64,000 nt of DNA from Corynebacterium casei LMG S-19264 (lineage in GTDB: Bacteria > Actinomycetota > Actinomycetes > Mycobacteriales > Mycobacteriaceae), in the NCBI RefSeq assembly GCF_000550785.1, contig NZ_CP004350.1, positions 414,009 through 478,008 on the forward strand. Reading direction: 5' to 3'. The notes beneath the pieces were generated by a model. That model did no database searches. It saw only the letters and a program-made list of their open reading frames with translations, and was not told the DNA's origin. Every line of letters starts with the position of its first letter. Position 1 is the first letter of the stretch. Shown here one piece after another: positions 24,428 to 46,675 of the stretch. Made by a program: the position numbers and the translations under genes.

Positions 24428-27400
24428 CTACTTGGCCGGAGGGAAGGTGCCTTCGGCGGTGAGACGGATGTCATCGTCAAGCAAGAGCGCAATTTCTGCG
24501 GCCTTGTCGGCGGCGACTGGGCCGTAGTTCTCGATCTCTACGGTGCCGGCTGTGTCAGGTAGACGGCGGCCGTCGATGACCTCGAAGAGAACTTCCTTGC
24601 CAATCATGCCGGCTTCGAAGCGGGCAGCGCCGGTAGCGAGGCGGGCATTGGCCTTCTCGCGCCATTCGGCAGCAGCCTCAGGCGATACCTGCTGAGCTAC
24701 GGCAGCTTCGAAGACACCTGGGTGAGCGTAAACCAGCAGTGCACCCACGTGGCCGAAGCCCAAGGAAGTCAGCGCAGCGGCTTTCACAGGACGGTTAGCT
24801 GCCTCGACATGTAGTGGGGAACGCAGCCAGACAAGGTTCTTCGCCTTTGGCTCAATCAGCGGGTCAACACAGTCCAGAGACTGGTTCGCTGGGATGCGGC
24901 CAGTGCGGAAGACGTCAATCAAACCACCGGTCTGGAACAGTGCCGCACCAGCCTTGGAGTGACCGGTCAGGGTCTTCTGCGAGATGACGAACAGTGGCTG
25001 GTCAACGTCGCGGCCAATAGCTGGCCACAGGATGGAGTGTAGCTCCGACTCGTTCGGGTCATTAGCGTTGGTGGAAGTGTCGTGCTTGGACAGCACCGAA
25101 ACATCGTTCGGGGTCAGACCCAAACCAGCCAGGCCCTTGGCCAGACGGGAGTTCTTACGTCCACGGCCAGCACCCAAAGCACCCAGACCTGGAGCAGGAA
25201 TGGAGGTGTGTGCACCGTCGCCGTAGGAAGCCGCGTGAGCAACCACAGCGTAAACCGGCAGACCCATCTCACGAGCCAGGGAGCCGCGAACCAGAAGGAC
25301 GGTACCGCCGCCTTCTGCCTCGAGGAAGCCGCCACGACGGCGGTCATTCGCACGGGAGATGAAGCGGTCATCAATGCCCTGGTCGGTCATCTTCTTGGTC
25401 TCGGCGGTTGCATTCATATCGCCGAAGCCGGTCAAAGACTCAACCTGAACGTCATCAATACCACCGGCAACAACCAAGTCGGCCTTGCCCAAAGCAATCT
25501 TGTCCACGCCCTCTTCGATGGACACCGCAGCGGTTGCACAAGCACCGATTGGGTGAATCATCGAACCGTAGCCGCCAACCAGAGACTGCATGGTGTGCGC
25601 TGCAATAACGTTTGGCAGTGCCTCCTGCAGGATGTCAGAAGGACGGTCTTCACCGAGCAGACGTGTCACGAAGACCTTGTGCAGGGATTCCATGCCGCCG
25701 ATACCGGTGCCCTGGGTGGTAGCAACCTGTGCTGGGTGGATAACCTGCAGCAACTCTGTTGGGCTGAAACCTGCCTGGGTAAACGCATCCACCGCGGTAA
25801 CCAGGTTCCAGACTGCCATGCGGTCAAGAGCATCCAGCATGTGGTCTGGGATGCCCCACTTGGCTGCATCGAAGTGCTCAGGCATTTGACCTGCAACGGT
25901 GCGGGTCAAGGTTGCCTTGCGTGGAACACGCGCGGTTGCGCCCTTGAGGCGGGTGACTTCCCACTCGCCGTCAACTTCACGCAGCTTGGTAAAGGATGGG
26001 TCTGCTTCTTCAATATCGCGTGCTTCCTGCTCAGAAGCCACGGTGAAGACAATATCGCGGTCCAAGAACACGGAAGTCAGGTCAATAGAGCCCTGGTCAA
26101 CCATGTTGTACTTGTCGGTCAGGGTGCGGATACCGGAGCGGGCAACAACTTCATCGCGGAAGCGGTTGTAGATATCCGCCTCATCGATCTCGTTGCCGTC
26201 CTCGTCGTACCAGGCGGGACGTGGGTCATTTGCCCACTGCACCAGACCGGTCATCCAAGCCAATTCCAGAACACCGGCAGCAGTCAGGTCAACAGAACCA
26301 TCGCGCTGCAGACCGTATTCTGCTTCGAAGCGGGTACGGCCAGAGCCCCAGGAGGAAACCTCGCCGACACCGGCGATGACAACCATGTCATCCAAGTCGG
26401 TGGTGACTTCTCCGACTTCACCTTCTGGCAACGCGGCAGGCAGTTCTACCTGGCGGGTGTTAGGCAAAGCCAGGATGGTGACTTCTTCTGCCGCGGAAAC
26501 GCTATCCGATTCTTCAGAAGCGGATGCGTTTTCCGCGTCTTCGCGAACCTGCGCAGCAAGCTCGGAGATGGAGATCTTGGAAGAACCAAGACCACCGGTC
26601 AGATCCAGCTCCAGTGGAGCCTCGGCTGCCTGCGCGCGGGACTCAGCGGATGCCAAGGACATCAGCTGGGAAGAAATCTCTTCTGGGTCCCACACGTGGA
26701 TGCCAGCTTGTTCTGCAGCTGGGATGAGGATGTCATTGCCACCCATCAGGGAAGTGCCGGATACCCAGCCAATCTTCGCCTGCGCTAGGGTGACACCTTC
26801 TGGCCAGCCTGCCTCTGCAGACCACTTCGCCAAAATAGCGTCCAAAGCTGCCTTGACCTCGCCATAAGCGCCGTCGCCGCCGAACATGCCGCGGTTCGGG
26901 GAACCAGGCAGAACGATGTGGCAGCGGGTGTCCACGCCTTGCTGCGCAAGGTTGGACAGGCCAGCGATGGTGCGCTCAACCGACCACAGCAGCAGACGGG
27001 TCTGGTTCTCTGCCTGCGGACCTGCATCCGCAACGGAACCGGACACGCTTGGTGCCGCGAATGGGAATGCCAAGGTTGGGGTCAAAGCTGGCTTGGTGAT
27101 CTTGACTTCGTTGCCAACAGACTCACGCTGCTCAGTGCCAATCCAGTCGATGAGGGCATCAACGTCGCGGTAGGAGCTAAGGTTCGCTGGAACAACCCAC
27201 AGGGCTGCGCCTGGGATGGCGTGTGCAGCGTAGAGCTTGCGTGCGAATTCCTTACGGGACTGGCTGACACGGGACGCGGTCATGATGACGGTCGCGCCGC
27301 CTTCGAGCAGACGCTCCACCAAAGCGGTAGCAATGGAACCAGGTGCAGCACCGGTGACCAGTGCGACATCGCCGGCGAACTCGCCGTTGAGTTCTTCACG

Positions 27401-30400
27401 TGCTGCTGAAGCAATAGCCTGCAGGGTTTCTGTAGAGGTTGCCTTCGCGTGCGCACCCGTGGATACAGCGGTGTTGTTAGCCCACCACTCAGCTTGCTTA
27501 GCGATAGTCTCGCCGGTGCCACGGAAACGGTCCGCTGGAAGGTCCAGCTCGCCGAGCGCGACGCGCGCGAGGTCTTCACGTGCGGAAGCCCAACGGTCAT
27601 CGAAAAGCACTGCTTGCTTTGCATCGAATGCTGGGGTGACGGTCTTCGCCCAACCGGACCCGAGCTCAGCCTCAACGGTCTCGAACAAGGTGTTGTCAGT
27701 CTCTGGGGTCTCTGGTGCTTCATCGACCAGACCGAGCTGCGTCAGAATCTGGCGAGCAGCGGTTGCCAGAACACCGTTTTCACCGGTGACGGTGTCAGCA
27801 TAAGCATCCAGGGCCGCGGAGTCTACAACTCCACCGCCGCCAGCGGAACCAGCGGAACCCATGGACACGGACGTGCCGTGAGCTGCCGCGACGGACTGAA
27901 CTGCGGCATCGACAAGAGCGTCCACATCCGACTTCGAGGAAGCAGAAGATGGAACGGTGGACAAGGAGCCACCACGCACGGAATCTTCTTCGCGGGAGCC
28001 GAGCAGGATTTCTGCCTCAACATGGGAAGCCCAAGAAGCAGGCAGTCCCCAGGTGCCGGTGACGCGCTCAGAAATGTAGGCCGGCTTCACGCCTGCTGCA
28101 CCAGTGAGCTGGCGCAGACGAGCAGTGATTGCCTCAGACAAGACGGTGCCGAATGGGGAGTAACCCGGTGCAGCAGTCTTGACGCGCTCGCGCAGGGTTG
28201 CCACGTCAGCATCAGCTGCGCCATCAATAGCTGGCACGCCGATTTCCGCGGACATATCCATCAACAGCTGGTTACGGCGGGAGGAGACACCGTTGGTGAG
28301 CTCTTCGACCGTATCGGTGTCATTGATCTGGTCCTGGCGGATCTTGTTCTGGAAAGCGAACAGAACCATGATTGCTTCAGCAGCGCTAAATGGCAGGTCC
28401 GGAGCATCGCTGGCTGCAGTGGCGCCAGCCGACGATACAGGCGCTGATGGTGCAGCAGCGACGGTCTGTGGCTCAGCAGATGGGATGGCCTGAGTGTTGT
28501 CAGATGCGGCAGCGGCGGATTCCGCTGGTGCTTCCGATGCAGAGGTGGAAGACGTTGCTTCGCGCTCTTCGGCGTCGAAGGTAGCAGCTGGTGCTTCCTT
28601 GACGTCTTGCAGCATGACCTGATCCTGGTCGCGCTCAACGTTGAATACTGGCAGGTCAACGCCCGCGATGTCCATGGAACGCTTAGCCAGGTTGGTCAAG
28701 GTAGGCGATGCCGCGAGACCAACTTCAATGATCTGGTCTACTTCACCAAAGAGCAGTTCCTGGGTTTCAATCCAGCGAACTGGGGAAGCGAACTGCCAGG
28801 ACAGCAGCTCGATGACGAGCAGGCGAGCAAGAGCTTGGTCATCAAGGTCTTCAACCTTGAGGTTGTCCAGCTTGCCGGAAGGAGCCAGTGGCTTAACCTT
28901 CTCCACGAATTCCTGGGTGAGCTCGAATGGGGAAGCCACCAGGTTTGGCACGTAACGGCCAACCAGTGCGTCCAAGTCGAGGGTTGCTGGCAGCAGTTCA
29001 TCGAGCTTTTCAGCGAATGCTGGAACGCCGCCGCGCAGAACCTGGGAGTGGAAAGGCACGTCAATGCCAGGAACCGTGACATATGCGCGGTCCTTGACGG
29101 AGTTAGCCTTCTTCTTCAGTGCGGCCAGACCAGCCTTGGTACCCGCGATGGAGTACTGCTGGCCAGCGATGTTGTAGTTAACAATCTCCAGGAACTCGCC
29201 GGTTTCTTCGGCGGTCTGAGCAATGTATGCCTCAACCTGGTCAGCTGGAACACCAATCATGTTTGGACGCAGTGCGCCCATGCCGTAGTTGGAGTTACCG
29301 TTTGCATCGCGCTCAACGAGCGTGCCCATGGCGGAACCACGAGAGTACACGATGTCAATGACAGCTTCGAGGTCGAAGATATTCGCCAAAGATGCAAGCG
29401 CGGTGTACTCACCAAGGGAGTGGCCGGCGTACATGGAGTTGGTGCCCAAAGCGCCAGCTTCGCGCAGACGCTCAGTCTGGGCATAAGCAACCACTGCGAG
29501 GGCGACCTGGGTGAACTGGGTCAGGTGCAGAACGCCGTTCGGGTGGATGAACTTGGTGCCGCGAACAACCAGCTCAGTTGGGTTGTCATCAATGATCTGG
29601 CGGATGCTAAAGCCCAGCGCGGTGCGGGTGTGGCGGTCAGCGCGGCGCCATACCTCGCGTGCGGCTGCCGATGCATCACGGTCGCCACGGCCCATGCCCT
29701 CAGCCTGGATGCCCTGGCCTGGGTAGACATAAGCGGTGCGTGGCTGCGCCATCAGTGCCTGGCCGCGGGAAACGACTTCGCCGTCGATACGGCAGGTGAC
29801 CTCGAATGCAGCGTGGATGCCCTTGCGGCCGACGCGCTCAACGGTGATTTCAACCTCGTCATTGAGCTGAACCATGCCGAACATGGAGTAGGTCCAGCCG
29901 ACCACGGTGCCGTGGTTGCCAGCCAGGTGCTGAGCGGTGGCCGAGAGCCACATGCCGTGCACCAGTGGTGCTTCCAGGTTGACCAGCCGTGCTGCGTTGG
30001 TGGAGGTGTGAATTGGGTTGTAGTCACCAGAGACCAGCGCGAATGGGGTCATGTCTGCTGGTGCGGTGACAACAGCGCGGTCCACGAAGGAGCGTGGAGT
30101 GGTCTCCACCTTGTCCTGGGACTTGCCGCCGCCCCATGCTGGTGCAGGAACTGGGACAGAAGAACCGGTTGCGCGGCCACGGATGGCGAAACGCTGCATC
30201 TGCGTTGCGACGACTTCCTGGGTCTGCGCGTCACGCAGTTCCAGTTCAACGGTGACAATGCGGCCCGCGTTGGATTCGGCGATAGAAGCACAACGGGAAG
30301 TTACGTCAATGCGACGGCCTTCGCCCTTGGCTCCTCTCGCGAGTTCCTGGAGAGGAACTCGCACGTCAACAACGTGGTCCAGGTGAACCGCGTTGAGCAG

Positions 30401-33400
30401 GCCTTCGATGACTGGAAAGTCAGTGCCAGCTGGCTCGCCGTGCTCTTCGGTCAAACGACCGGTGCCCAGCGCGGTGTAGATTGCTGGCCAGCAAGGGCCA
30501 ACCAGTGCGTCCGGGGTACCAGCATTTGCGGTGCCCAGGGCTGCGCCGGTGACAGCGGTGTGCGCGGTCAGCAGGGTAGAAGGCAAAGTGAAGGAGTACT
30601 CCACCAGGCCGTAGGGGTTCTCTTCAGAGACAGAACCCTCAATAACCTTCGGCAGTGCGGTGATTTCATCGCCGGTCTCGGAGATGGAACCAACACCAGC
30701 AACGCCTGCGAGCAGGTCAAAGACGGCCTTTGGTAAACGTGCATCATCCACAACTGGGGATGCACCGGTTGCTACTGCCTCAGACAGCGCAACTGGGATG
30801 TCCACGTGCTTGACGTAGAACGGACGCTGCTCTTCGGGGAGGTTATCCCAGTAAGAATCAGAGTTGATGCGAATGGCCAAGCCTTCGCCGTCATCAACGA
30901 TGTCGAATGCTTCGTCTGGCAGCTCAAATGCTGGGTTAGCAATGAGGTGACCGTGCCACATGATGGTTGGCGCGTTGCGCAGGAATTCTTCTGCGGTCTT
31001 AGCCGAAGCCAAGCGGGAGTAGAGGGAAACCGACTCCACGCCGGCATCGCCAAGCGCTGCGGTGGTTGCGTCCTCGAAGCGGCCAAGCAGCTCAGCTACT
31101 GGCTCATTCTTCTTGGTAATACCCGCAACAGCGACTGGGCCAGGGATGATACGTACGCCGTCAGCGTCGTAGCGTGGGTCCTGTGCCTGCCACAGGGTGT
31201 CCTTTGCAAACCATTCCTTGAGATCACCGTCAATAGCGGTGGTCCACGGCATTGGCTTGACGTGCTTGCGGATAAGGGTTGGGAACCATGCCTCATCACG
31301 AGTGTTGACCTTGGTGGTCTTCGCATTCGGGTAAGCAGCAATCAGCTTTGCCACTGCCTCTGGTGCGTTCTCGGAATCTTCGAGTGAAGGGAACAGGGTT
31401 GGGATTTCACCATGGTCAGCTTCGTTGAGACGAGCCTCAACGCGCTGCAGAAGATCATGGAAACGATCGTGCCAGGTTGGGTCAACCCATGGGAATGCAC
31501 GTTCTGCGAAGCGGGAAGCCCACTCCTCGTAGGTCATTTCCGAAACATCGCCGAAGTAAGGTTTCGAGGTCTTTGCCAAAGCCGCGATGATTTCATCACG
31601 GCGGGAGTCATAGTCCTCGATAGGGATCGAGGTGATCAGGCGGGATGCCTTAGCGAAAGAGTTATCAACCTCGTGCAGGTCAGCCAACAGGTGGGACTGG
31701 GAGGAAGATACGCCGCCGTCAGCCTTCAGGCGGCCAACCCAGCCGCCGTTGGTGTCTGGGGTGATACCTGGGGTGTCAACGAGCAGCTGCTTGACGTCAT
31801 CATTAGCAGTTGCTTCCTTGGTTGCCATGGCAACGGTGCCCAAGAAGACGCCATCAACCGGCATGATTGGCAAGCCGTACTTGGTGGACCAGGAACCGGT
31901 CAGGTACTCAGATGCACGGTCAGGGGAGTAGATGCCGCCACCAACGGTGATCGCAAGGTTGGCGTGCTGGCGTGCCGATGCATAGGTGGCTAGCAGCATT
32001 TCATCCAGGTCAACCCACGAGTGGTGGCCACCAGCGTGGCCGTCTTCGATCTGGATGATGACGCGGTGCTCAGGATTATCCGCAGCGATAGCGATGCAGT
32101 CCTGAATCTGCTTGGTGGTACCTGGCTTGAAGGAGATATAAGGGAATCCATCAGCGGTGAGCTGGTCCAGCAGTTCCTTTGCTTCATCCAACTCAGGGAT
32201 ACCCGCGGAAATGGTGACGCCGGTAAAAGCCGCGCCGTTAGCGCGTGCCTTTGGCACAATGCGAGCCTGACCGAACTGCAGGTTCCACAGGTAGCGGTCG
32301 AAGAACATGGTGTTAAATGCTGCGGTGCGACCTGGCTCCAAAAGCTCCATCATGCCGTCTTTATTGATGGTAAAAGCTTCATCGGAGTACTGTCCGCCGC
32401 CGGCCATCTCTGACCAGTAGCCGCCGTTTGCAGCAGCAGCAACAATGCCCGGATCCATGGTGGTTGGGGTCATACCGCCCAGGATGATGGGGGACATGCC
32501 GGTCCACTCAGAGAAACGGGTCTGGGTGTAGGACTTGCCGTTTGGCAGGGAAATCAGCTTTGGTGAGAACTCTTCGTAGTTCACAGCGGTTGGCAGCTCA
32601 GTACCTGGGGTTGCCAGATTATCGCGCTCAGCTGGGGTAGCGGCAGGAACAACTACCTTGCCGGTACCGCCAACTAGTGGTGCAGTCAAAGAAGACAGGC
32701 CACGGTCCAGCGCTACTAGGTAGTTGGAGTCCAATGCCGCAACGGCCTCAACCCAGCTGTGTGGCTGAACCAGGATGGAGTCAGCGAGTTCGCGTGCCAG
32801 CTTTGCGTCCAGGCCACACTGCTGTGCGTATTCCACGGTCAAGTCTGCAGTGGCCTGCAGGGATGAGTGGTGGAAAGGAAGTGCTACCGGCAGAACGTCG
32901 AACTTCGGGTTGATTTCAGAACCACCGATGAGACGCTCTTCGAGTGCCTCATTGTAGGACTTTGCAGCATGCTCGATGTTGGACTCGGTCTTAGCCAAAT
33001 CCTCTGGAGTGCCGGACAATGCAAAGTGCACGCGGCCGTTGACAACAGCAATAGCTGCGTCACCCGCGAGGTACTCTTCAACCAGTTCACGTGGCACGCC
33101 ACGGACAGTCAACATGTGGGAGCGGGAATCATTCGCGCCCTGGGTAACAGCAGCTGCGGTACCCATCAAAACTGCAAGAGCCAGGGCCTGGCGTGCATCC
33201 TTGACAGCTGCAACGCCCAAAGAACCCTGGGAGTGACCAGCAAGCTGCGCGGAGTCTACGTCCAAGCCAAGCTCACGAAGGTGGTCAATGGCACCAATCT
33301 GGCCCAGAACAATACCTGGGATGGAGTATGCCGGGTAAGCGTCATAGTCCTTAGCCACTGGTGGCTCGCCCGCTGGGGTGCTAGCCAATTCTTCCAAGCG

Positions 33401-33613
33401 CTCATAGACACCTGGGCAAGAGGAGGCGATGATTCGCGCTACAGGGCCGGTGGTGGTGCGTACTTCTGCAAGGATATTGCGCAGGTTTTCTGCCTGGTGG
33501 TGGCTGGCTGCGGCATCGGCGATAGCCTTTTGCCATGCAGAACCCTGACCTGCAAACAGCACTGCCGGAGCAGTGCTGTCATTGGACAAGGTAAGCAAGG
33601 GGGTCAACGACAT
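24428..33613 (-). CDS. fas: Type I fatty acid synthase
   Basis: A 3061-residue multifunctional synthase makes acyl-CoAs for phospholipid and corynomycolate. Domain order is actinobacterial/fungal: acetyltransferase (GHSQG, Ser about 128), enoyl reductase (GGMTPTTMDPGI, about 379), dehydratase hotdog (SGDYNPIHT, about 1190), malonyl/palmitoyl transferase (YAGHSLGEYT, Ser about 1399), ACP (NGVSSRRNQLL, phosphopantetheine Ser about 1777), ketoreductase (ALVTGAAPGSIATALVE, about 2080) and ketosynthase (HPIGACATAAVS, Cys about 2692). No phosphopantetheinyl transferase domain is present, so a separate AcpS is needed. The ATG follows AAAGAGGAC at good spacing. The last 960 bp are duplicated at 20021-20980. 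Confidence 0.97.
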   Translation of the reverse strand: MSLTPLLTLSNDSTAPAVLFAGQGSAWQKAIADAAASHHQAENLRNILAEVRTTTGPVARIIASSCPGVYERLEELASTPAGEPPVAKDYDAYPAYSIPGIVLGQIGAIDHLRELGLDVDSAQLAGHSQGSLGVAAVKDARQALALAVLMGTAAAVTQGANDSRSHMLTVRGVPRELVEEYLAGDAAIAVVNGRVHFALSGTPEDLAKTESNIEHAAKSYNEALEERLIGGSEINPKFDVLPVALPFHHSSLQATADLTVEYAQQCGLDAKLARELADSILVQPHSWVEAVAALDSNYLVALDRGLSSLTAPLVGGTGKVVVPAATPAERDNLATPGTELPTAVNYEEFSPKLISLPNGKSYTQTRFSEWTGMSPIILGGMTPTTMDPGIVAAAANGGYWSEMAGGGQYSDEAFTINKDGMMELLEPGRTAAFNTMFFDRYLWNLQFGQARIVPKARANGAAFTGVTISAGIPELDEAKELLDQLTADGFPYISFKPGTTKQIQDCIAIAADNPEHRVIIQIEDGHAGGHHSWVDLDEMLLATYASARQHANLAITVGGGIYSPDRASEYLTGSWSTKYGLPIMPVDGVFLGTVAMATKEATANDDVKQLLVDTPGITPDTNGGWVGRLKADGGVSSSQSHLLADLHEVDNSFAKASRLITSIPIEDYDSRRDEIIAALAKTSKPYFGDVSEMTYEEWASRFAERAFPWVDPTWHDRFHDLLQRVEARLNEADHGEIPTLFPSLEDSENAPEAVAKLIAAYPNAKTTKVNTRDEAWFPTLIRKHVKPMPWTTAIDGDLKEWFAKDTLWQAQDPRYDADGVRIIPGPVAVAGITKKNEPVAELLGRFEDATTAALGDAGVESVSLYSRLASAKTAEEFLRNAPTIMWHGHLIANPAFELPDEAFDIVDDGEGLAIRINSDSYWDNLPEEQRPFYVKHVDIPVALSEAVATGASPVVDDARLPKAVFDLLAGVAGVGSISETGDEITALPKVIEGSVSEENPYGLVEYSFTLPSTLLTAHTAVTGAALGTANAGTPDALVGPCWPAIYTALGTGRLTEEHGEPAGTDFPVIEGLLNAVHLDHVVDVRVPLQELARGAKGEGRRIDVTSRCASIAESNAGRIVTVELELRDAQTQEVVATQMQRFAIRGRATGSSVPVPAPAWGGGKSQDKVETTPRSFVDRAVVTAPADMTPFALVSGDYNPIHTSTNAARLVNLEAPLVHGMWLSATAQHLAGNHGTVVGWTYSMFGMVQLNDEVEITVERVGRKGIHAAFEVTCRIDGEVVSRGQALMAQPRTAYVYPGQGIQAEGMGRGDRDASAAAREVWRRADRHTRTALGFSIRQIIDDNPTELVVRGTKFIHPNGVLHLTQFTQVALAVVAYAQTERLREAGALGTNSMYAGHSLGEYTALASLANIFDLEAVIDIVYSRGSAMGTLVERDANGNSNYGMGALRPNMIGVPADQVEAYIAQTAEETGEFLEIVNYNIAGQQYSIAGTKAGLAALKKKANSVKDRAYVTVPGIDVPFHSQVLRGGVPAFAEKLDELLPATLDLDALVGRYVPNLVASPFELTQEFVEKVKPLAPSGKLDNLKVEDLDDQALARLLVIELLSWQFASPVRWIETQELLFGEVDQIIEVGLAASPTLTNLAKRSMDIAGVDLPVFNVERDQDQVMLQDVKEAPAATFDAEEREATSSTSASEAPAESAAAASDNTQAIPSAEPQTVAAAPSAPVSSAGATAASDAPDLPFSAAEAIMVLFAFQNKIRQDQINDTDTVEELTNGVSSRRNQLLMDMSAEIGVPAIDGAADADVATLRERVKTAAPGYSPFGTVLSEAITARLRQLTGAAGVKPAYISERVTGTWGLPASWASHVEAEILLGSREEDSVRGGSLSTVPSSASSKSDVDALVDAAVQSVAAAHGTSVSMGSAGSAGGGGVVDSAALDAYADTVTGENGVLATAARQILTQLGLVDEAPETPETDNTLFETVEAELGSGWAKTVTPAFDAKQAVLFDDRWASAREDLARVALGELDLPADRFRGTGETIAKQAEWWANNTAVSTGAHAKATSTETLQAIASAAREELNGEFAGDVALVTGAAPGSIATALVERLLEGGATVIMTASRVSQSRKEFARKLYAAHAIPGAALWVVPANLSSYRDVDALIDWIGTEQRESVGNEVKITKPALTPTLAFPFAAPSVSGSVADAGPQAENQTRLLLWSVERTIAGLSNLAQQGVDTRCHIVLPGSPNRGMFGGDGAYGEVKAALDAILAKWSAEAGWPEGVTLAQAKIGWVSGTSLMGGNDILIPAAEQAGIHVWDPEEISSQLMSLASAESRAQAAEAPLELDLTGGLGSSKISISELAAQVREDAENASASEESDSVSAAEEVTILALPNTRQVELPAALPEGEVGEVTTDLDDMVVIAGVGEVSSWGSGRTRFEAEYGLQRDGSVDLTAAGVLELAWMTGLVQWANDPRPAWYDEDGNEIDEADIYNRFRDEVVARSGIRTLTDKYNMVDQGSIDLTSVFLDRDIVFTVASEQEARDIEEADPSFTKLREVDGEWEVTRLKGATARVPRKATLTRTVAGQMPEHFDAAKWGIPDHMLDALDRMAVWNLVTAVDAFTQAGFSPTELLQVIHPAQVATTQGTGIGGMESLHKVFVTRLLGEDRPSDILQEALPNVIAAHTMQSLVGGYGSMIHPIGACATAAVSIEEGVDKIALGKADLVVAGGIDDVQVESLTGFGDMNATAETKKMTDQGIDDRFISRANDRRRGGFLEAEGGGTVLLVRGSLAREMGLPVYAVVAHAASYGDGAHTSIPAPGLGALGAGRGRKNSRLAKGLAGLGLTPNDVSVLSKHDTSTNANDPNESELHSILWPAIGRDVDQPLFVISQKTLTGHSKAGAALFQTGGLIDVFRTGRIPANQSLDCVDPLIEPKAKNLVWLRSPLHVEAANRPVKAAALTSLGFGHVGALLVYAHPGVFEAAVAQQVSPEAAAEWREKANARLATGAARFEAGMIGKEVLFEVIDGRRLPDTAGTVEIENYGPVAADKAAEIALLLDDDIRLTAEGTFPPAK
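24429..25388. repeat. Right copy of the ~960-bp fas 3' direct repeat
   Basis: Same orientation as 20021-20980, offset 4408 bp, only a handful of differences seen. The pair flanks the IS and the exported-protein cassette and could recombine to delete them. Confidence 0.9.
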
Positions 33614-37693: not shown

Positions 37694-37705
37694 GATTTGG
37701 GCTTG

Positions 37706-38938
37706 ATGATTGGTGCAGATTATTCCCGAGCTTCTAGGGTTTCTCTAGTAGTTTGTATGTTTATCGGCTCTTTCGTGTTGGCGTCTTGTGTTCGTGATGT
37801 TCCGCAGGGTTCCGAATTGGAATTAGAAGATGCGCAGTTTATTGGGCATACGATAGACATTTTCGATAATGCTGAAACACAGAATAGTGTTTTTCTTTCC
37901 GCCGAAGGCGGTGTGGCGGCAAAAGGAATCAAGAAGGCTGGGTATCAGTATTTTTCAGCCCTTAGACGTCTAGATTCGGGGTTTATTGCTACAAGTTCTG
38001 AAGAATTGATAATGGTGGATGGTGTGACTGGTGAGGTTGACACCATTGCCATGCCTGATGGAGATAAGGGGTCACTTACAAAAGTTGCGGTTGCGGATCG
38101 AGAGCCGCAAAACACGACTGTTGTCTATGAATTCAATGAAACGGGTGATAATCCTGTCGGAAACTATGATTCGATTCTCGTCACGGTTCATGATGGTGTG
38201 GCTAAAGATAGTGGACGCAGGATTCGTCCAGTAGATGCTATGACAGCATGTGAAGACAGATCAGTGCATTGGATAGAACGTGACATTGAAATCACAGGAG
38301 AACGCAGAGAATTCGGGCCGGCTATCTACATGTATTGGGCGGCTGATGCTGATGAACCCGCAGAAATTCCCATTGACGGACAAGAATTGGACTATGCAGC
38401 AATTTCGGGTGGCACTCTAGGCTGTAATGGGGAGACGGGGTACTACGTCCGTGGCGATTTTGATGAAAAGCGAGGGGAGTCTTTCGCTACGTCCACGGAG
38501 ATCACATTCGATGGCGAGAAAGTTGACGTGGGAGAAACGATCGAACTTGGCTATGTTCCCGAAAGGCGACTGGCACGATTTGATGACGTAGATACCAAGA
38601 CAAAACGTTATTCAGTTTTTGACGAAGATGGGAACTTCAGCACGGTCGATCTGAAAACTGGTGAGTGGATATTTGATCGTGTCTCGGTTGTGCCTCCCTT
38701 GTGGGGTTATTCAATGACTTTCGATGAAAATATGGCATACATGGTAAACAGCGCTCCCGAAGGTGAGAAAGAAGTCTTTGAGGTACTAGCGATATCTCTT
38801 GATGATCCAACTTGTACGCATAGCACGCGCATAGCAGCGTACCAAGGGCATGAAAACCCTCCACGTGGTTGGATCGCGACGGATTCGATGGTCCCAATTA
38901 ACGTATTTCCCCCAGTGCCTGAGTCGAGCTGTGGGTAG
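37706..38938 (+). CDS. Lipoprotein of unknown function
   Basis: About 410 residues. The N terminus has a lipoprotein signal (SLVVCMFIGSFVLASC) with lipobox LASC, so Cys at about residue 27 is the likely lipidated residue. The mature part is acidic and beta-rich, with recurring short blocks such as GFIATSSEELIMVDGVTGEV and YSVFDEDGNFSTVDLKTGEW, which look like blades of a beta-propeller (inference). The ATG at 37706 has AGGA ten bases upstream. No family recognised. It is AT-rich, follows a YiiX-like remnant, and is closed by a terminator shared with the convergent acyl-CoA ligase gene. Confidence 0.75.
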   Translation: MIGADYSRASRVSLVVCMFIGSFVLASCVRDVPQGSELELEDAQFIGHTIDIFDNAETQNSVFLSAEGGVAAKGIKKAGYQYFSALRRLDSGFIATSSEELIMVDGVTGEVDTIAMPDGDKGSLTKVAVADREPQNTTVVYEFNETGDNPVGNYDSILVTVHDGVAKDSGRRIRPVDAMTACEDRSVHWIERDIEITGERREFGPAIYMYWAADADEPAEIPIDGQELDYAAISGGTLGCNGETGYYVRGDFDEKRGESFATSTEITFDGEKVDVGETIELGYVPERRLARFDDVDTKTKRYSVFDEDGNFSTVDLKTGEWIFDRVSVVPPLWGYSMTFDENMAYMVNSAPEGEKEVFEVLAISLDDPTCTHSTRIAAYQGHENPPRGWIATDSMVPINVFPPVPESSCG

Positions 38939-39027: not shown

Positions 39028-40731
39028 CTACTTCTCCAATAACTTGAGCAGGTCTGCTTGGACCTCGCGGCGGCGGATCTTGCCCAGTTGGTCTTTGGCA
39101 AGGTCCTCGAAGTGGTAGAAGGTGCGTGGCACTTTGTAGCGGGTGAGGCGTTCGCGGGAGAAGTCCTTGAGGCCCTCGGGATCTAGGGCGGCGCCATCGC
39201 GAAGCGTCACGCAGGCAACGACATCCTCGGAGCCATCGTGGCGGGGGCGGCCAACCACGGCGACATCGGTGATATCCGGGTGGGTGCGCAGGATTTCTTC
39301 GACCTCAGCAGGGTAGACGTTGAAACCACCGGTGATGATGATTTCCTTGATGCGCGCAACCAATCGCACAAAGCCGTCTTCTTCCATAACGCCAACGTCG
39401 CCGGTGCGGAACCAATCACCGTGGAAGGCTTCCTCGGTGGCTTCGGGCTTGTTCAGGTATCCCTTGAACACCTGAGGTCCGCGAACCAGAAGCTCGCCTT
39501 CCTCGCCGTCGGGCATGGTCTCATCCAGATTATCTGGGTTGGCAATGCGCACTTCCGTATCAGGGAAAGGCAGGCCAACATAGCCTGGGCGGGTTTTGCC
39601 GTTCATAGGGTTGCCACAAATAACTGGGGAAGTCTCAGTTAGACCGTAGCCTTCCACCAGTTTGCCGCCGGTGAGAGTTTCCCAGTCCTCAACGGTAGAG
39701 ACCGGCAGTGTAGAAGCGCCGGAAAAGGCATTGTCAATGCCCTTGATTTCAATATTTTTCTCATTCGCGGCCTGAATGATCTTCTCGTACAAGGTTGGCA
39801 CGCCCGGTGCGAAAGTAGGGGTGTGTTTCTTCAACACATCAATGATCAACGGAACCTGCGGCGCTGGCAGCAAAACCATCTCTGCACCAACATAAGGGCC
39901 AAGGGTTGCCACCATGGTCAAACCGTAGACATGGAACATCGGCAAGGTAGCGAGGAAGCGTTGCTGCTTATCCCGCAAGCCCGGAACCCATGCCTCACCC
40001 ATGACACACATCGAAGCCATGTTTCCGTGGCTGAGCATGGCGCCCTTAGGCTGACCAGTGGTGCCCGAGGTATACAGAATCAGCGCGGTATCTTCCTTGG
40101 TAACCGCAGGAAACTCAATATCTTTACCGGAACCACCAATAGCGTGTGAGCACAAGGTAGACCATGGGACGGTATTAGGGGCATCGCCAGTAAGCGCGTC
40201 ACGCTTGGACGTAATTGGCGGAACTGGGATGCGCAGCAGAAGCTGCATGCGACGTGGCATGGCTTCAGTCATATTGACGGAGATGATGGTCTCCAAAGGG
40301 GTAACGCCACGCAGCTTTTCCAACGTTGGCGCGGCCTTGTCCCACACAATAGCCACGCGTGCCCCATGGTCCTTGAAAAGGCTTTCAAGCTCATGCGCGG
40401 TGTAGAGCGGATTATGCTCAACCACCGTCGCGCCGAGCTTGAGCACTGCATAGAACGCGGCGATGTGCTGTGGACAGTTCGGCAGAACCAAGGCCACGCG
40501 GTCGCCGGGGCGAATGCCAAAGGCCTTGAGCCCAGCCGCGGCAGCACGTACCTGGTGGTCCAGGTCGCTGTAAGTCTGCGTGCGGCCAAAGAAATAGGTC
40601 GCGGACTTGTTGCCGTTCTTTTCTAAGTTGTTGTCATAGAAATCAACCAGCGTGTCATCGCCGTAGTTCAGATGCGGTTCGGTCCACTCAGCATAATTGT
40701 GGATCCAAGCCTTGGTTTGAAATGCCGACAT
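39028..40731 (-). CDS. fadD: Long-chain fatty acid-CoA ligase (FadD-like), array copy 1
   Basis: 567 residues from an ATG with GGAGG seven bases upstream; an upstream extension of the frame is not supported. This is an adenylate-forming enzyme: P-loop-like LILYTSGTTGQPKGAMLSHG, GYGLTETSPVI, GDWFRTGDVGVMEEDG (acyl-adenylate Asp), the hinge LVARIKEIIITGGFNVYP and the catalytic Lys in DQLGKIRRRE. It activates fatty acids with ATP and CoA at the membrane face. It is the last of three tandem paralogues (with 40884-42596 and 42906-44621), sharing long identical blocks, most clearly in the C-terminal 120 residues. The substrate difference among copies cannot be read. Confidence 0.92.
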   Translation of the reverse strand: MSAFQTKAWIHNYAEWTEPHLNYGDDTLVDFYDNNLEKNGNKSATYFFGRTQTYSDLDHQVRAAAAGLKAFGIRPGDRVALVLPNCPQHIAAFYAVLKLGATVVEHNPLYTAHELESLFKDHGARVAIVWDKAAPTLEKLRGVTPLETIISVNMTEAMPRRMQLLLRIPVPPITSKRDALTGDAPNTVPWSTLCSHAIGGSGKDIEFPAVTKEDTALILYTSGTTGQPKGAMLSHGNMASMCVMGEAWVPGLRDKQQRFLATLPMFHVYGLTMVATLGPYVGAEMVLLPAPQVPLIIDVLKKHTPTFAPGVPTLYEKIIQAANEKNIEIKGIDNAFSGASTLPVSTVEDWETLTGGKLVEGYGLTETSPVICGNPMNGKTRPGYVGLPFPDTEVRIANPDNLDETMPDGEEGELLVRGPQVFKGYLNKPEATEEAFHGDWFRTGDVGVMEEDGFVRLVARIKEIIITGGFNVYPAEVEEILRTHPDITDVAVVGRPRHDGSEDVVACVTLRDGAALDPEGLKDFSRERLTRYKVPRTFYHFEDLAKDQLGKIRRREVQADLLKLLEK

Positions 40732-40883
40732 AAGACGTCCTCCCAGGGATAATGTATCGATGGTGCATCTGCAACGGTCAGCGTGAAAATCTTGCGGGGC
40801 CAACCGGCGAGAAGTGGCAAAGAAGTGATGTACTTCTTATGAGCTTAGTGCACCAAGTCCTATCGCTTGGGAGGACGAGTTAA

Positions 40884-42596
40884 TTACTTATCGCCCAGCA
40901 TCTTAAGAAGATCCTGCTGGACTTCGCGGCGGCGAATCTTGCCCAGCTGGTCTTTGGCCAGTTCTTCAAAGTGGTAGAAGGTACGTGGCACCTTGTAGCG
41001 GGTAAGACGCTCGCGGGCAAAGTCTTTTAGACCTTCTGGGTCGAGAGCAGCACCGTCGCGCAGCGTGACACACGCGACCACATCTTCGGATCCGTCATGA
41101 CGTGGACGTCCAACTACGGCAATGCCTTCGATATCTGGATGCGCTGAGATAGCTTCCTCGACCTCACCAGGGTAGACGTTGAATCCGCCGGTGATGATGA
41201 TTTCCTTGAGGCGGGCTACGAGACGGACAAAGCCATCTTCTTCCATGACGCCTGCGTCACCAGTGCGGAACCAATCACCGTGAAAGGTTGCGGCGGTAGC
41301 TTCTGGATTATTGAGATAACCCTTGAATACCTGTGGGCCGCGGACTAGCAGCTCACCTTCCTCGCCATCAGGCATAGTTTCATCGAGGTTTTCTGGGTTA
41401 GCAATACGTACCTCGGTATCTGGAAACGGTAGGCCGACATAGCCCGGACGGTGGTTACCGTCCATCGGGTTGGCACAAATAACCGGTGCTGTTTCAGTCA
41501 GGCCGTAGCCTTCCACCAGCAAGCCGCCGGAGAATGCTTCCCACCGTGCTACGGTACGAACCGGCAATGTTGCGGCACCAGAGAAAGAACTCGCAATCGG
41601 ATGCTGCGTCTTATCCATGCCCTTTTCTTCAGCTGCAGCCAAAATCTTGTCATACAGAGTTGGCACGCCTGGCGCCCACGTTGGCGTGTGCTTCTTAATA
41701 ACATCCATAATCAGCGGAATCTGTGGTGCCGGCAGCAGGATAATTTCCGCGCCAACGTAAACACCCAGCGCTACCACGGTGGTCATGCCGTACACATGGA
41801 AGAACGGCAGCGCCGCGAGGAAACGCTCCGGCTTTTCACCAAGTCCTGGAACCCACGCCTTGCCCATGACACAGTTGGCCAAAATATTGGCATGGGAAAT
41901 CATCGCACCCTTGGGTGCGCCCGTGGTGCCGGAGGTATACAGAATCAGAGCGGTGTCATCATGAGAGACTTCATTGTTGACAAAGTCCCTGCCATTGCCG
42001 CCGATGGCTTGAGAAATCAGCGTTGACCATGGAACCGTATTTGGGGCAGCGCCTGTTAATGCATCGCGCTTGGCGCTAATCGGAGGAATTGGAATGCTCA
42101 GCAGCAGCTGCATGCGACGCGGCATTGCTTCAGTCATGTTGACGGAGACAATGGTTTCCAAGTCAGTAGTAGCGCGAATCATTTCCAGCGTTGGTGCCGC
42201 TTTATCCCAAGTAATGGCTACGCGTGCGCCGTGGTCTTTGAAAAGTCCTTCGAGTTCATGCGCGGTGTACAGCGGGTTGTGCTCAACCACAGTTGCGCCA
42301 AGCTTTTGAATAGCGAAGAAAGCCGCGAGGTGCTGCGGGCAGTTTGGAAGCACAATAGCGACGCGGTCACCCGGACGGATGCCAAAGGCTTTCAGGCCTG
42401 CGGCGGCAGCACGCACCTGCTGGTCAAGTTCTTTGTAGTTTTGGCCGCGTCCGAAGAAATAAGTAGCGGGTTTGTCGGCGTTGAGCTCCAAGTTGCGGTC
42501 ATAGATTGACGCGAGGGTGTCTTCGCCATATTCCAGTTCGGGTTCGGTCCAAGGGGCGTAGAGCTTGGTCCAGGCCTTGGTTTCAGATGCTGACAT
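40884..42596 (-). CDS. fadD: Long-chain fatty acid-CoA ligase (FadD-like), array copy 2
   Basis: 570 residues, start MSASETKAWTKLYAPW after GGAAGG. It has the same motif series as its neighbours: LILYTSGTTGAPKGAMISHA, EGYGLTETAPVI, GDWFRTGDAGVMEEDG, ARLKEIIITGGFNVYPGEV and DQLGKIRRREV. It differs from copies 1 and 3 mainly in the acyl-binding middle (for example DKTQHPIASSFSGAATLP), where chain specificity is usually set. A perfect inverted repeat GCCTAAA-TAT-TTTAGGC lies 105 bp upstream, a candidate operator not seen before the other two copies. The gap of 152 bp to copy 1 suggests partly independent expression. Confidence 0.92.
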   Translation of the reverse strand: MSASETKAWTKLYAPWTEPELEYGEDTLASIYDRNLELNADKPATYFFGRGQNYKELDQQVRAAAAGLKAFGIRPGDRVAIVLPNCPQHLAAFFAIQKLGATVVEHNPLYTAHELEGLFKDHGARVAITWDKAAPTLEMIRATTDLETIVSVNMTEAMPRRMQLLLSIPIPPISAKRDALTGAAPNTVPWSTLISQAIGGNGRDFVNNEVSHDDTALILYTSGTTGAPKGAMISHANILANCVMGKAWVPGLGEKPERFLAALPFFHVYGMTTVVALGVYVGAEIILLPAPQIPLIMDVIKKHTPTWAPGVPTLYDKILAAAEEKGMDKTQHPIASSFSGAATLPVRTVARWEAFSGGLLVEGYGLTETAPVICANPMDGNHRPGYVGLPFPDTEVRIANPENLDETMPDGEEGELLVRGPQVFKGYLNNPEATAATFHGDWFRTGDAGVMEEDGFVRLVARLKEIIITGGFNVYPGEVEEAISAHPDIEGIAVVGRPRHDGSEDVVACVTLRDGAALDPEGLKDFARERLTRYKVPRTFYHFEELAKDQLGKIRRREVQQDLLKMLGDK

Positions 42597-42905
42597 GCGG
42601 TCCTTCCAAATGTTCGGGCTCGCGTTAATGCGATTGTGTTCGGTTATTCAGTATGAATTGACGCCGAAACAATAACAGTGTGGAGAAACTGTATTTAGAC
42701 GCCTAAATATTTTAGGCTCCATAATACAGAGCGAACATGATGGAAACCTCACCTTTGTTCGGTTTGTTGCAGGAAAACTTCTTCCACCCCCAGATGCGAA
42801 AAATTCCCACATCGGTATCCGTCATTCTCAGCCAGGTGTTGCGGCGAAAGTGGGGGATGTGTCCGATGCGGGAAAGCCTGTGCAGTGAATCTGCGAGTGT
42901 GGCTG
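42597..42905. other. 309-bp gap between ligase copies 2 and 3
   Basis: It holds the promoter region of copy 2, including the inverted repeat at 42701-42717. A forward frame (42737-42934) runs into the antisense of copy 3 and has no family support, so I leave it out. Confidence 0.5.
42701..42717. promoter_or_regulatory. Inverted repeat GCCTAAA-TAT-TTTAGGC upstream of ligase copy 2
   Basis: Perfect 7-bp arms with a 3-bp AT spacer about 105 bp before the start. It looks like a dimeric repressor operator; the regulator is unidentified. Confidence 0.5.
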
Positions 42906-44621
42906 TTACTTGTTTTGCTTCTCCAAGAGGTTGATCAGATCCTGCTGGACTTCGCGGCGGCGGATCTTGCCCAGCTGGTCCTTAGCCAGGGCTTCGAAGT
43001 GGTAGAAAGTGCGTGGAACCTTGTAGCGGGTCAGGCGCTCGCGGGAGAATTCCTTGAGGCCCTCGGGATCCAATGCGGCGCCATCGCGAAGGGCTACGCA
43101 CGCAACGACATCCTCGGAGCCGTCCTCGCGTGGGCGGCCCACCACGGCTGCTTCTTCCACATCTGGGTGGGAGAGAAGTGCTTCTTCAACCTCAGCTGGA
43201 TATACATTGAAACCACCAGTGATGATGACTTCCTTCAAGCGTGCAACCAGGCGGATGAAACCGTCTTCTTCCATGATTCCCAAGTCGCCGGTGCGGAACC
43301 AGCCATTGTGGAAGGCCTGCTCTGTTGCCTCCGGGTTGTTGAGGTAGCCCTTGAAAACCTGTGGGCCGCGGGCGATGATTTCGCCTTCCTCACCATCCGG
43401 CATGATTTCATCCGGGTTCTCTGGATTAACAATGCGGATTTCCGTATCGGGGAAAGGGATGCCCACGTAGCCAGGACGGCGGCTATCAGTCATTGGGTTG
43501 CCAATAAGAATTGGGGAAGTCTCTGTTAAGCCAAAGCCCTCAACCAGGCGGCCTTGGGTGAGCTCTTCCCAGTCCTCCACGGTGGAAACCGGAAGAGAGG
43601 CAGCGCCAGAGAATGCACTGCGGATGCCCTTAATAGCAATGCCTTTGTCCTTGGCTGCTTCCACGATTCGGCTGTAGAGCGTTGGCACGCCCGGAACCCA
43701 GGTTGGGGTGCGCTTTTTCATGATGTCCATGATGAGTGGAATCTGCGGGGAGGGGAGAAGGACCAGCTCGCCGCCGATGAACTGCGCCAAGGTGAGGTTC
43801 ATGGTCAGGCCATAAGCGTGGAAGAACGGCAGCGCTGCCAGCATGCGCTCATCGGAATCACCCAACTCTGGAACCCAAGCCTTGCCCTGCGCGATATTGG
43901 CAAAGAGAGAGCCGTGGGTAAGTTCGGCGCCCTTGGGCTGGCCCGTGGTGCCGGAGGTGTACATAACCACGGCGGTGGTGTCCGTGGTGACTGATGGCTC
44001 AGATTCAATATCGCTGCCGTCGCCACCAATGGCGTTGCCAATCAAAGTGTCCCAGGGAACTGAATTGCGGGCTTCGCCGGAGAGCTGATCGCGCTTTGCC
44101 TTAAGCGGTGGAACCGGAATGCGTAGGGCAATCTGCTGCAACGTGGGCATCGCGTCAATCATGTTGACGGAAATAACGGTCTCTAAGTCAGTCGTTCCGC
44201 GCAGTTTCTCCAGGGTTGGTGCTGCTTTATCCCACGCAATAGCAATGCGGGCACCGTGATCCTTAAAGAGTTTTTCCAGCTCGGGCGCGGTGTACAGCGG
44301 GTTGTGCTCAACTACCGATGCGCCCAGCTTGAGCACGGCATAAAAGGCGGCGACGTGCTGCGGGCAGTTCGGCAGAACCATTGCTACGCGGTCGCCCGGG
44401 CGTACGCCGAAAGCCTTCAAGCCGGCGGCCGCGCGGCGAACCTGACGGTCCAGATCTGCATAAGATTGGCTGCGGCCAAAGAAGCTCAACGCCGACTTGT
44501 GGCCATTAATTGCCAGGTTGTTGTCATAGACGTCCAGCAAGGTGGTGTCGCCGTAGTCTAAGGAATGGGGAGTCCATTCAGGGTAGTGCTGAAGCCAAGT
44601 TTTATTTTCTGTAGCAGACAT
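42906..44621 (-). CDS. fadD: Long-chain fatty acid-CoA ligase (FadD-like), array copy 3
   Basis: 571 residues, start MSATENKTWLQHYPEW with GAAGGA upstream. Motifs: VVMYTSGTTGQPKGAELTHG, EGFGLTETSPIL, NGWFRTGDLGIMEEDG, ARLKEVIITGGFNVYPAEV and DQLGKIRRREV. It is the first of the three tandem copies in transcription order. It is slightly more diverged (FGLTET rather than YGLTET, a TAPELEKLFKDHG segment) and so is probably the older split. Role: ATP-dependent acyl-CoA formation from free fatty acids, feeding beta-oxidation or lipid and mycolate assembly. Confidence 0.92.
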   Translation of the reverse strand: MSATENKTWLQHYPEWTPHSLDYGDTTLLDVYDNNLAINGHKSALSFFGRSQSYADLDRQVRRAAAGLKAFGVRPGDRVAMVLPNCPQHVAAFYAVLKLGASVVEHNPLYTAPELEKLFKDHGARIAIAWDKAAPTLEKLRGTTDLETVISVNMIDAMPTLQQIALRIPVPPLKAKRDQLSGEARNSVPWDTLIGNAIGGDGSDIESEPSVTTDTTAVVMYTSGTTGQPKGAELTHGSLFANIAQGKAWVPELGDSDERMLAALPFFHAYGLTMNLTLAQFIGGELVLLPSPQIPLIMDIMKKRTPTWVPGVPTLYSRIVEAAKDKGIAIKGIRSAFSGAASLPVSTVEDWEELTQGRLVEGFGLTETSPILIGNPMTDSRRPGYVGIPFPDTEIRIVNPENPDEIMPDGEEGEIIARGPQVFKGYLNNPEATEQAFHNGWFRTGDLGIMEEDGFIRLVARLKEVIITGGFNVYPAEVEEALLSHPDVEEAAVVGRPREDGSEDVVACVALRDGAALDPEGLKEFSRERLTRYKVPRTFYHFEALAKDQLGKIRRREVQQDLINLLEKQNK

Positions 44622-44830: not shown

Positions 44831-45346
44831 CTACGGTGTGCGCTCATTGAATATGTCGCGGGCATCAATGTCGATGAGCTTGAGCAATGCATCGTGAGCA
44901 ATGCGGTACTTGATGCCCAGCTTGCCGCCGCCGATGATGTAGGACTCTTCATTCAACCGGGAAGAATCCCCGACCACCCCAAGACCGTCTGGCAAACCGA
45001 TAGGCCCGACGCTGTCGCGTTCCATCTGCGTCAATGCCAGCGCATCATCCATCGGCATGAAAGATGCTTTTCCACCCAGGGCTCGTTTCATGCCCTTGTT
45101 ATCCAAGGTGTGGGTTGCTGGCACCAGCACTAGATAAGGTGCGCGCTCGCCGTTGCTTTTGACGGATACAACAATGGAATTGATGCTCTGGCTTGCAGAA
45201 ACATCGTATTTCTCCATAAAAGATGCGGTATCAGAAACATCCGGGTTCATCGTGATGACTTCGACAATGTTATCTGGAGCGTTGTCTGGTTTCGCAGCGG
45301 GGTTATTGGCGGAATCGGTGGCGGTGCTGTTTTCAGGCTGGCTCAT
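44831..45346 (-). CDS. YbaK/EbsC-type aminoacyl-tRNA deacylase-like protein
   Basis: 171 residues. The first 45 are polar (Ala/Asn/Pro-rich). The rest fits the YbaK/ProX editing fold: SASQSINSIVVSVKSNGERA (the conserved Lys strand), PYLVLVPATHTLDNKGMKRA, MDDALALTQMERDSVGPIGL (the VGPIGLP motif) and the late SYIIGGGKLGIKYRI strand. Members clear mischarged Cys- or Ala-tRNA(Pro); the exact substrate is not predictable. It is divergent from mshA with about 60 bp between starts. Confidence 0.75.
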   Translation of the reverse strand: MSQPENSTATDSANNPAAKPDNAPDNIVEVITMNPDVSDTASFMEKYDVSASQSINSIVVSVKSNGERAPYLVLVPATHTLDNKGMKRALGGKASFMPMDDALALTQMERDSVGPIGLPDGLGVVGDSSRLNEESYIIGGGKLGIKYRIAHDALLKLIDIDARDIFNERTP

Positions 45347-45406
45347 GCGGCTTAGATTCTTTCACTCAAGGTGTATGGGGCGTAGTGAAAGTCTAGGATG
45401 TCCGGT

Positions 45407-46675
45407 ATGAGAGTCGCCATGATTGCAATGCATACCTCGCCAATTGCCCAGCCTGGCTCCGGTGACGCTGGCGGGATGAACGTCTACGTGCTGTCCATTG
45501 CAACGCAGTTGGCGCGCAAGGGCGTGGACGTGGATATTTTCACGCGCGCGACCCGTCCGAGCCAGGGCGAGATTGTGGAGATTGAGCCGCACCTGCGCGT
45601 CATTAACATTGTGGCGGGTCCTTTTGAGGGCCTGAGCAAAGAAGAGCTGCCAACGCAGTTGGCGGCGTTTTCTGGTGGCATGGTGCAGTTTATTAAGTGC
45701 AATAACTTGTTCTATGATCTCATCCACTCCCACTATTGGCTCTCGGGCCAGGTGGGCTGGCTGTTGCGTGATTTGTGGGGCATTCCCTTCGTGCACACGG
45801 CACACACCCTGGCGGCGGTGAAGAATGCTTACCGGGCTGCCGATGATTCCCCGGAGTCGGAAGCGCGACGTATCTGTGAGCAGCAGCTGTCAGATAATGC
45901 GGATGTCATGGTGGTCAACACTGAGGATGAAAAGCGCGAGCTGATCGCGCATTATGATGCGCAGGAATGCCACATTGATGTGATCACTCCTGGCGCGGAC
46001 ACGGATCTCTTTACTCCCGGCACCGACCGCAATACTGAGCGTAGTCGCCGTGAATTAGGTATTCCGCTGCACACCAAAGTTGTGGCATTCGTGGGCCGAT
46101 TGCAGAAGTTCAAGGGCCCAGAGGTGCTCATTCGCGCAACGGCAGAATTGTTTAAGCGTGACCCGCACCGAAATCTCCGTGTGGTTATTTGTGGTGGGGC
46201 ATCGGGTGAGGCGTCGAACGTGCAAAGCTACCACGAACTAGCGCGTGAGCTGGGCGTTACCCACCGCATTCGTTTCCTTGATGCCCGCCCGCCGCAGGAG
46301 CTAGTTGCGGTGTATCAGGCTGCGGATATTGTTGCGGTGCCAAGTTACAACGAGTCTTTTGGTCTGGTAGCTATGGAAGCCCAGGCCACCGGTACGCCTG
46401 TTGTTGCTGCGCGCGTGGGCGGTTTGCCGATTGCCGTTGACCACAATGTCACGGGCTTGCTTATTGATGGCCACGATCCCGCAACCTGGGCTGATTCGCT
46501 GGGAGAGCTGCTCGATGATGACGAACGGCGCATCGCCATGGGCGAGGAAGCCGTGGGGCATGCGGCGAAGTTTAGTTGGGCTGCCTCGGCGCAGGACCTG
46601 TTGAAGGTCTACGAAGAAGCAACCAAGCTGGACATGTCTGAATGCCACGGCCCGCGCCAAGCTGCCGGAATCTAA
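45407..46675 (+). CDS. mshA: D-inositol-3-phosphate glycosyltransferase, first step of mycothiol synthesis
   Basis: 422 residues from ATG 45407 ([20 protein letters not shown]), which aligns with the C. glutamicum start; AGGA is eight bases upstream. It is a GT4/GT-B enzyme: N-terminal Gly-rich loop [49 protein letters not shown] and the E-x7-E catalytic segment [19 protein letters not shown]. It joins GlcNAc from UDP-GlcNAc to 1-L-myo-inositol-1-phosphate in the cytoplasm. Followed 62 bp later by gpmA, as in other corynebacteria. Confidence 0.96.

Follow-up and report, generated by a model that had tools for sequence, protein, structure and literature searches.

In Corynebacterium glutamicum, FadD5 activates oleate, FadD5 and FadD15 return thioesterase-made fatty acids to acyl-CoA, and a fadD5 fadD15 double disruptant fails to grow on oleate without biotin and retains 1.6 of 11.0 mU/mg FadD activity (PMC7851686, in those of its passages that deal with these genes). 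The locus described here lies in a stretch of 64,000 nucleotides (hereafter the window) from the 3.11 Mb chromosome of Corynebacterium casei LMG S-19264 and carries not one fadD5 gene but three, referred to as copies A, B and C. All three are intact and lie in tandem on the minus strand, and the initial annotation of three tandem acyl-CoA ligase genes was borne out by matches to NCBIfam family PRK05605 and to Pfam. The three genes are as follows:

42906-44621, minus strand: fadD5 copy A, 571 aa, the copy nearest mshA (PRK05605, 940.6 bits)
40884-42596, minus strand: fadD5 copy B, 570 aa (PRK05605, 894.0 bits)
39028-40731, minus strand: fadD5 copy C, 567 aa, one of the C-type second copies that many species share (PRK05605, 935.9 bits)

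The start of copy C was taken as the ATG at 40731, which is preceded by a GGGAGGA stretch; the TTG at 40803 is only the mechanical start of an open reading frame list and was set aside. The genes are separated by 309 nt between A and B and by 152 nt between B and C. Each protein exceeds the cut-off (766 bits) of PRK05605, an equivalog family for long-chain-fatty-acid--CoA ligase, over positions 9-572 of the 575-position profile, and each matches the Pfam domains AMP-binding (PF00501) and AMP-binding_C (PF13193). The strings YTSGTTGxPKG, WFRTGD and GKIRR are invariant in the alignment of A, B and C, and we take them to be the P-loop and C-terminal lysine motifs of the ANL (acyl-AMP forming) superfamily. 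With both AMP-binding domains present and the motifs intact, the trio is placed in this superfamily, and its identity as acyl-CoA ligases of the corynebacterial FadD5 orthologue group is judged firm. The fadD5 primers given in PMC7851686 translate to MSAYETKEW, EWTPHS, GKIRRRE and LLKKLGK*, fitting the ends of the trio proteins; GKIRRRE is found in all three copies, while EWTPHS occurs in copy A only (PWTEPE in B, EWTEPH in C).

It is highly probable that the trio represents old, conserved long-chain acyl-CoA ligases of the FadD5 family, which would act, probably as isoenzymes, in recycling fatty acids to the acyl-CoA pool. The family, order, age, conservation and fixed differences of the copies were read directly from the comparisons below; substrates, division of labour and expression are inferred. 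The same A-B-C array, in the same order, is present in three other genomes (loci L042, L122 and L123). Orthologues across these loci are 90-96% identical, as opposed to 68-78% between copies (B-C 78%, A-B 68%, A-C 72%), and the synonymous divergence (dS, NG86 method) is 1.4-1.9 between copies and 1.0-1.4 between the window and its L042 orthologues, so that silent sites between copies are near saturation. Because the array is shared, its orthologues are so much more alike than its copies, and dS between copies is so high, the A-B-C array is judged older than the split of the four genomes. The ratio of nonsynonymous to synonymous divergence (dN/dS) was 0.012-0.039 in nine orthologue pairs, and A, B and C are all kept under purifying selection.

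Across the genus, at least one match at E<=1e-100 was found in 200 of 201 genomes, the window's included, with approximate copy counts of one in 102, two in 70 and three in 28 genomes. No more than six candidates per genome entered the scoring, and the counts for G073 and G170 include fragments of broken or cut genes. The 85 loci examined are a non-random sample consisting of the window, 49 named loci from the best 80 matches (most other-genus matches and the cut L088 having been dropped) and 35 hand-chosen regions, with L126 (mshA not in the stretch), L137 and the duplicates L131 and L161 excluded. Among these loci, copy B was seen only in the window's clade, where its orthologues in L042, L122 and L123 are 90-94% identical. 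Within this sample Corynebacterium sp. HMSC04H06 has a second fadD5 copy (L093 11926-13670) that is split over two reading frames and looks broken. In genome G099 a C-type copy (L137 5456-7153) lies ~95 kb from the mshA-linked A copy, possibly through relocation or transfer, and the species groups with single-copy ones.

In all, 185 genes were extracted, of which 151 entered a quick tree after removal of duplicates, the two pieces of the second copy in L093, the cut L088, one L150 row containing a stop and most other-genus rows. This tree contains a clade of 81 sequences with the A-type copies and most species' single copies, and a clade of 46 with most second copies together with the window's B and C (supports of 95 and 89 for the two clades). 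A more careful tree of 48 sequences, rooted with Nocardioides, places B and C types in a single clade (100/99) nested among A-type genes, and joins each of A, B and C with its own orthologues from L042, L122 and L123 at 100/100. In both trees copy A falls with the single copies, and the copies next to mshA, of other Corynebacterium species. The A and B/C types are thus sisters in the larger tree and B/C is nested in A in the smaller one, but both agree in placing the A versus B/C split within the genus and before the origin of the window's clade, at depths that differ between the trees. Exceptions in the larger tree are the second copies of L139 and L140, which fall among A types and are read as independent duplications, and the extra copies of L078, L079, L083 and L085, which form a branch of their own; in these four loci the one or more copies closest to mshA belong to this diverged branch, and the A-type gene stands at the end of the array. 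L047-like genomes have short third copies that likewise branch separately. In this Corynebacterium tuberculostearicum group the third ligase adjoins the array and is shorter, with ~50% identity (L047 14006-15520; L048 13750-15264), and the L047 and L048 genomes are without a FAS-I (type I fatty acid synthase) match.

The initial annotation had read the trio as a recent amplification, with long identical blocks, a conserved C terminus and variation centred on the acyl-binding middle, and had suggested that the similarity invites gene conversion. The C terminus is indeed well conserved, with identities of 0.81-0.86 at residues 431-570. The identical blocks exist in the protein (longest runs of 18 residues for A-B, 19 for A-C and 34 for B-C) but not in the DNA, where the longest runs are 28, 23 and 22 nt, respectively, and the codon-aligned nucleotide identity between copies is 0.68-0.73. 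Residues 211-430 are variable (0.63-0.74, compared with 0.65-0.77 for residues 1-210), but the first 60 residues are equally so (0.50-0.63), and residues 61-120 are as conserved as the last quarter (0.83-0.90), which means that the variation is not centred on the middle alone.

A recent amplification whose copies are kept alike by ongoing gene conversion would account for the high protein similarity, as well as for the codons that the window's A and C share at residues 435-557 (p 0.0095 by permutation; 0.022 when the permutation run was shorter). It was nevertheless rejected, and we regard it as extremely improbable, given the array shared with three other genomes, the trees with their A versus B/C split in many species, the dS near saturation and the short identical DNA runs. 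In 34 genomes, moreover, A-C protein identity is the same within a genome as between genomes (0.684 versus 0.679), and when four-row A-C site patterns along the entire gene are added up for six non-independent genome pairs, 637 fit orthologue grouping, 109 concerted change and 90 a chance cross pattern. What persists of the conversion claim is a small excess at the codon level. A-C codon sharing within versus between genomes was 0.567 versus 0.534 raw and 0.059 versus 0.041 after correction for codon usage (34 genomes). This excess is absent from residues 1-210 (0.009 versus 0.008; own value above the others' mean in 17/34 genomes), and is seen in residues 211-430 (0.072 versus 0.042; 29/34 genomes) and residues 431-570 (0.109 versus 0.084; 25/34 genomes), where the window's own A-C excess is 0.189. 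In six of the 34 genomes the top-scoring segment of codons shared by A and C scores above all 66 cross-genome pairs, and A-B concerted patterns exceed chance at residues 431-570 (34 versus 14, from the six non-independent genome pairs). These figures would fit a history in which old copies now and then exchanged short tracts by conversion, chiefly over the final two-thirds of the gene, and such a history would be compatible with the preferred interpretation of old, conserved isoenzymes. Such conversion is only possible, because the genomes are related, so that the counts are not independent, and because codon bias may shift along the gene, an alternative suggested by the rise at the C terminus in cross-genome pairs as well (0.084). 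The window's segment score at 435-557 is reached by 5 of the 66 cross-genome pairs, and the concerted counts at residues 431-570 are near chance for A-C (33 versus 24) and B-C (29 versus 28); on balance, we consider short-tract conversion somewhat doubtful.

The alternative that the copies are functionally identical, and are kept for dosage or for different promoters only, bears on the claim of chain-length specialisation. Within the window's clade the string at the FHxYG motif is copy-specific, reading FFHAYGLTMNLTLAQF in A, FFHVYGMTTVVALG in B and MFHVYGLTMVATLGPY in C, with the C copy of L123 differing at three positions; the copy-specific residues presumably line the acyl pocket, as suggested by the position of the motif. 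In an exploratory test that made 12 comparisons and drew on four genomes, of which two are near-identical, fixed differences were compared with variation within copies, and were enriched in the middle domain for A-B (57:31 against 50:72, p 0.0008), A-C (54:34 against 47:62, p 0.015) and B-C (35:37 against 23:72, p 0.0017). In presumed pocket stretches, chosen from ANL motifs, the corresponding values were 20:6 against 87:97 (A-B, p 0.006), 21:5 against 80:91 (A-C, p 0.001) and 10:8 against 48:101 (B-C, p 0.07). The enrichment in the middle domain makes different substrate preferences of A, B and C plausible, and it is in this indirect form that the claim of specialisation survives; the variability profile on which it had drawn mostly reflects general constraint. 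The pocket enrichment argues against functional identity, as does a promoter consensus scan that returned 5 promoter-like sites versus 3.8 expected, none of them on the minus strand ahead of any of the three genes. On the other hand, the gaps between the genes leave room for own promoters, and just five positions separate A from C types in the 34 genomes, and we therefore treat functional identity as an unlikely but serious alternative.

Dependence on host lipids, to which the amplification had also been tentatively ascribed, could in principle drive copy number where fatty acid synthase has been lost. The raw counts are strong, with at least two copies in 40 of 51 FAS-I-less genomes versus 58 of 150 genomes with FAS-I (Fisher p 8e-7); for 31 of the 51, the lack of FAS-I is deduced from their not appearing among the FAS-I matches. 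These counts were not upheld on a species tree of MshA and Gpm, in which six independent FAS-I contrasts gave means of 0.0 in the same direction, 0.4 in the opposite direction and 5.6 without difference, with too few informative pairs for significance either way. This tree covers 81 of the 85 loci (L062, L074, L132 and L154 being without a clean marker), with the copy numbers of L074, L093 and L138 set by hand, and its FAS-I-less members are mostly multi-copy (10/14) and sit in a largely multi-copy part of the tree. Furthermore, the window's genome and all three sister genomes each have two FAS-I genes, and because of these two genes the window's organism should make its own fatty acids. Adaptation to host lipids is thus not supported for the trio, and FAS-I loss as the driver of extra copies, set aside on a test of little power, is in our estimate quite improbable.

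According to the favored interpretation, in which the trio consists of old isoenzymes, the ATP-dependent FadD5 enzymes would adenylate a free fatty acid and then transfer the acyl group to CoA. In this way fatty acids freed by acyl-CoA thioesterase, or imported by the cell, would enter the acyl-CoA pool that feeds membrane and mycolate lipids, a role transferred from what is known of C. glutamicum. Copy A would be the ancestral mshA-linked gene, the C type would have arisen by a duplication within the genus, and B most likely by another, later one in the clade of the window. The three are probable isoenzymes that may differ in the chain they prefer or in their expression, and the fixed residues around the presumed acyl pocket are particular to each copy. 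Several observations weigh against this account. The sister relation of B and C is weak in the 48-sequence tree (89/52), and the two trees give different answers as to whether the C type was lost from single-copy species or was never present in them. The positions separating A from C types at the thresholds used are 73, 149, 214, 372 and 566, and because only 372 lies within the presumed pocket stretches, a genus-wide pocket split between the two types is not evident. Per-column A-C identity tracks identity among A orthologues (Spearman 0.84) and among C orthologues (0.90) in the 34 genomes, and for this reason the profile of conserved C terminus and variable middle is mostly the normal constraint of the family. 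The thioesterase link, finally, is drawn from C. glutamicum.

The surroundings of the trio constitute an ordinary lipid-metabolism neighbourhood, which includes the following genes:

45398-46675, plus strand: mshA, mycothiol glycosyltransferase, the divergent neighbour anchoring the locus (TIGR03449, 666.7 bits, cut-off 462.5)
44831-45346, minus strand: aminoacyl-tRNA editing domain gene (PF04073), between copy A and mshA
37697-38938, plus strand: putative lipoprotein gene, judged from its N terminus, between copy C and an AAA ATPase gene
24428-33613, minus strand: FAS-I gene, 3061 aa, a linked neighbour outside the trio (PF08354 at G000:C1:445093-446070)
22553-24094, minus strand: DDE transposase gene, just downstream of the FAS-I gene

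The fadD5 genes diverge from mshA in all 83 of the 85 loci that have mshA in the stretch, the window included. Beyond mshA lie a phosphoglyceromutase gene and then a two-component pair with best family scores below curated cut-offs. The PF04073 gene is present in L123 too, and the gap of 0.3 kb in L042 and L122 is too small to hold it. A Pfam scan of the putative lipoprotein gave no match; in L042, L122 and L123 the AAA ATPase gene directly follows copy C. The FAS-I gene lies 5.4 kb downstream of copy C on the same strand, and an NCBIfam scan of its protein gave no family at E<=1e-60. FAS-I was found in the downstream flank on the same strand in 25 of the 85 loci, window included, a count for which many loci had too little downstream DNA and in which some with 8-10 kb had no FAS-I. 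Elsewhere the genome has one acyl-CoA thioesterase gene (PF02551), a PRK05620 ligase (L004), one acyl-CoA dehydrogenase match and four thiolase matches; the completeness of beta-oxidation cannot be read from these, as the C. glutamicum control matches too. The genome also has two small replicons of 2,461 and 16,264 bases; in a search with the first 2,400 bases of each, the larger matched a C. stationis plasmid at 91% identity across 75% of the query, and the smaller matched no plasmid.

A more speculative view, which we hold tentatively and think rather unlikely, is that the region from mshA through the fadD5 array to a second FAS-I gene works as an acyl-chain module specific to the lineage. 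In this view, three FadD5 isoenzymes that diverged long ago would sort chain lengths, and B would have evolved only in the window's clade. If so, FAS-I products, thioesterase-released acids and imported acids, for example, would be sorted among the isoenzymes. The wider biology of FadD5 is already established; what the locus adds is three naturally occurring FadD5 isoenzymes with fixed differences around their presumed pockets, a resource for studying how the recycling of fatty acids is shared out in corynebacteria, and a correction of the plausible but wrong reading of recent amplification for host lipids. Among the titles listed in literature searches none describes this trio, which is no proof of absence.

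Compared with described systems, the trio resembles C. glutamicum FadD5 (Cgl0400/NCgl0388), which in the relevant passages of PMC7851686 is a long-chain fatty acid-CoA ligase of 1,707 bp with matching terminal peptides. According to the same passages, C. glutamicum has one fadD5 among five fadD genes, whereas the window has three in tandem with a FAS-I gene nearby. The Corynebacterium diphtheriae genes fadD6 and fadD7 (DIP0386, DIP0387) have consecutive locus numbers and are both described as acyl-CoA synthetase, which recalls the tandem arrangement of the trio, but they are two genes rather than three and are known here from a table description (PMC5501465); our guess is that they represent the A and C types. 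The arrays of C. flavescens (L053), C. striatum (L069) and C. tuberculostearicum (L047) are like that of the window in diverging from mshA, with an A-type gene first and a C-type gene second. Where these arrays have a third copy, it is not of the window's B type, but is instead the shorter ~50%-identity gene in L047 and a member of a separate branch in L069.

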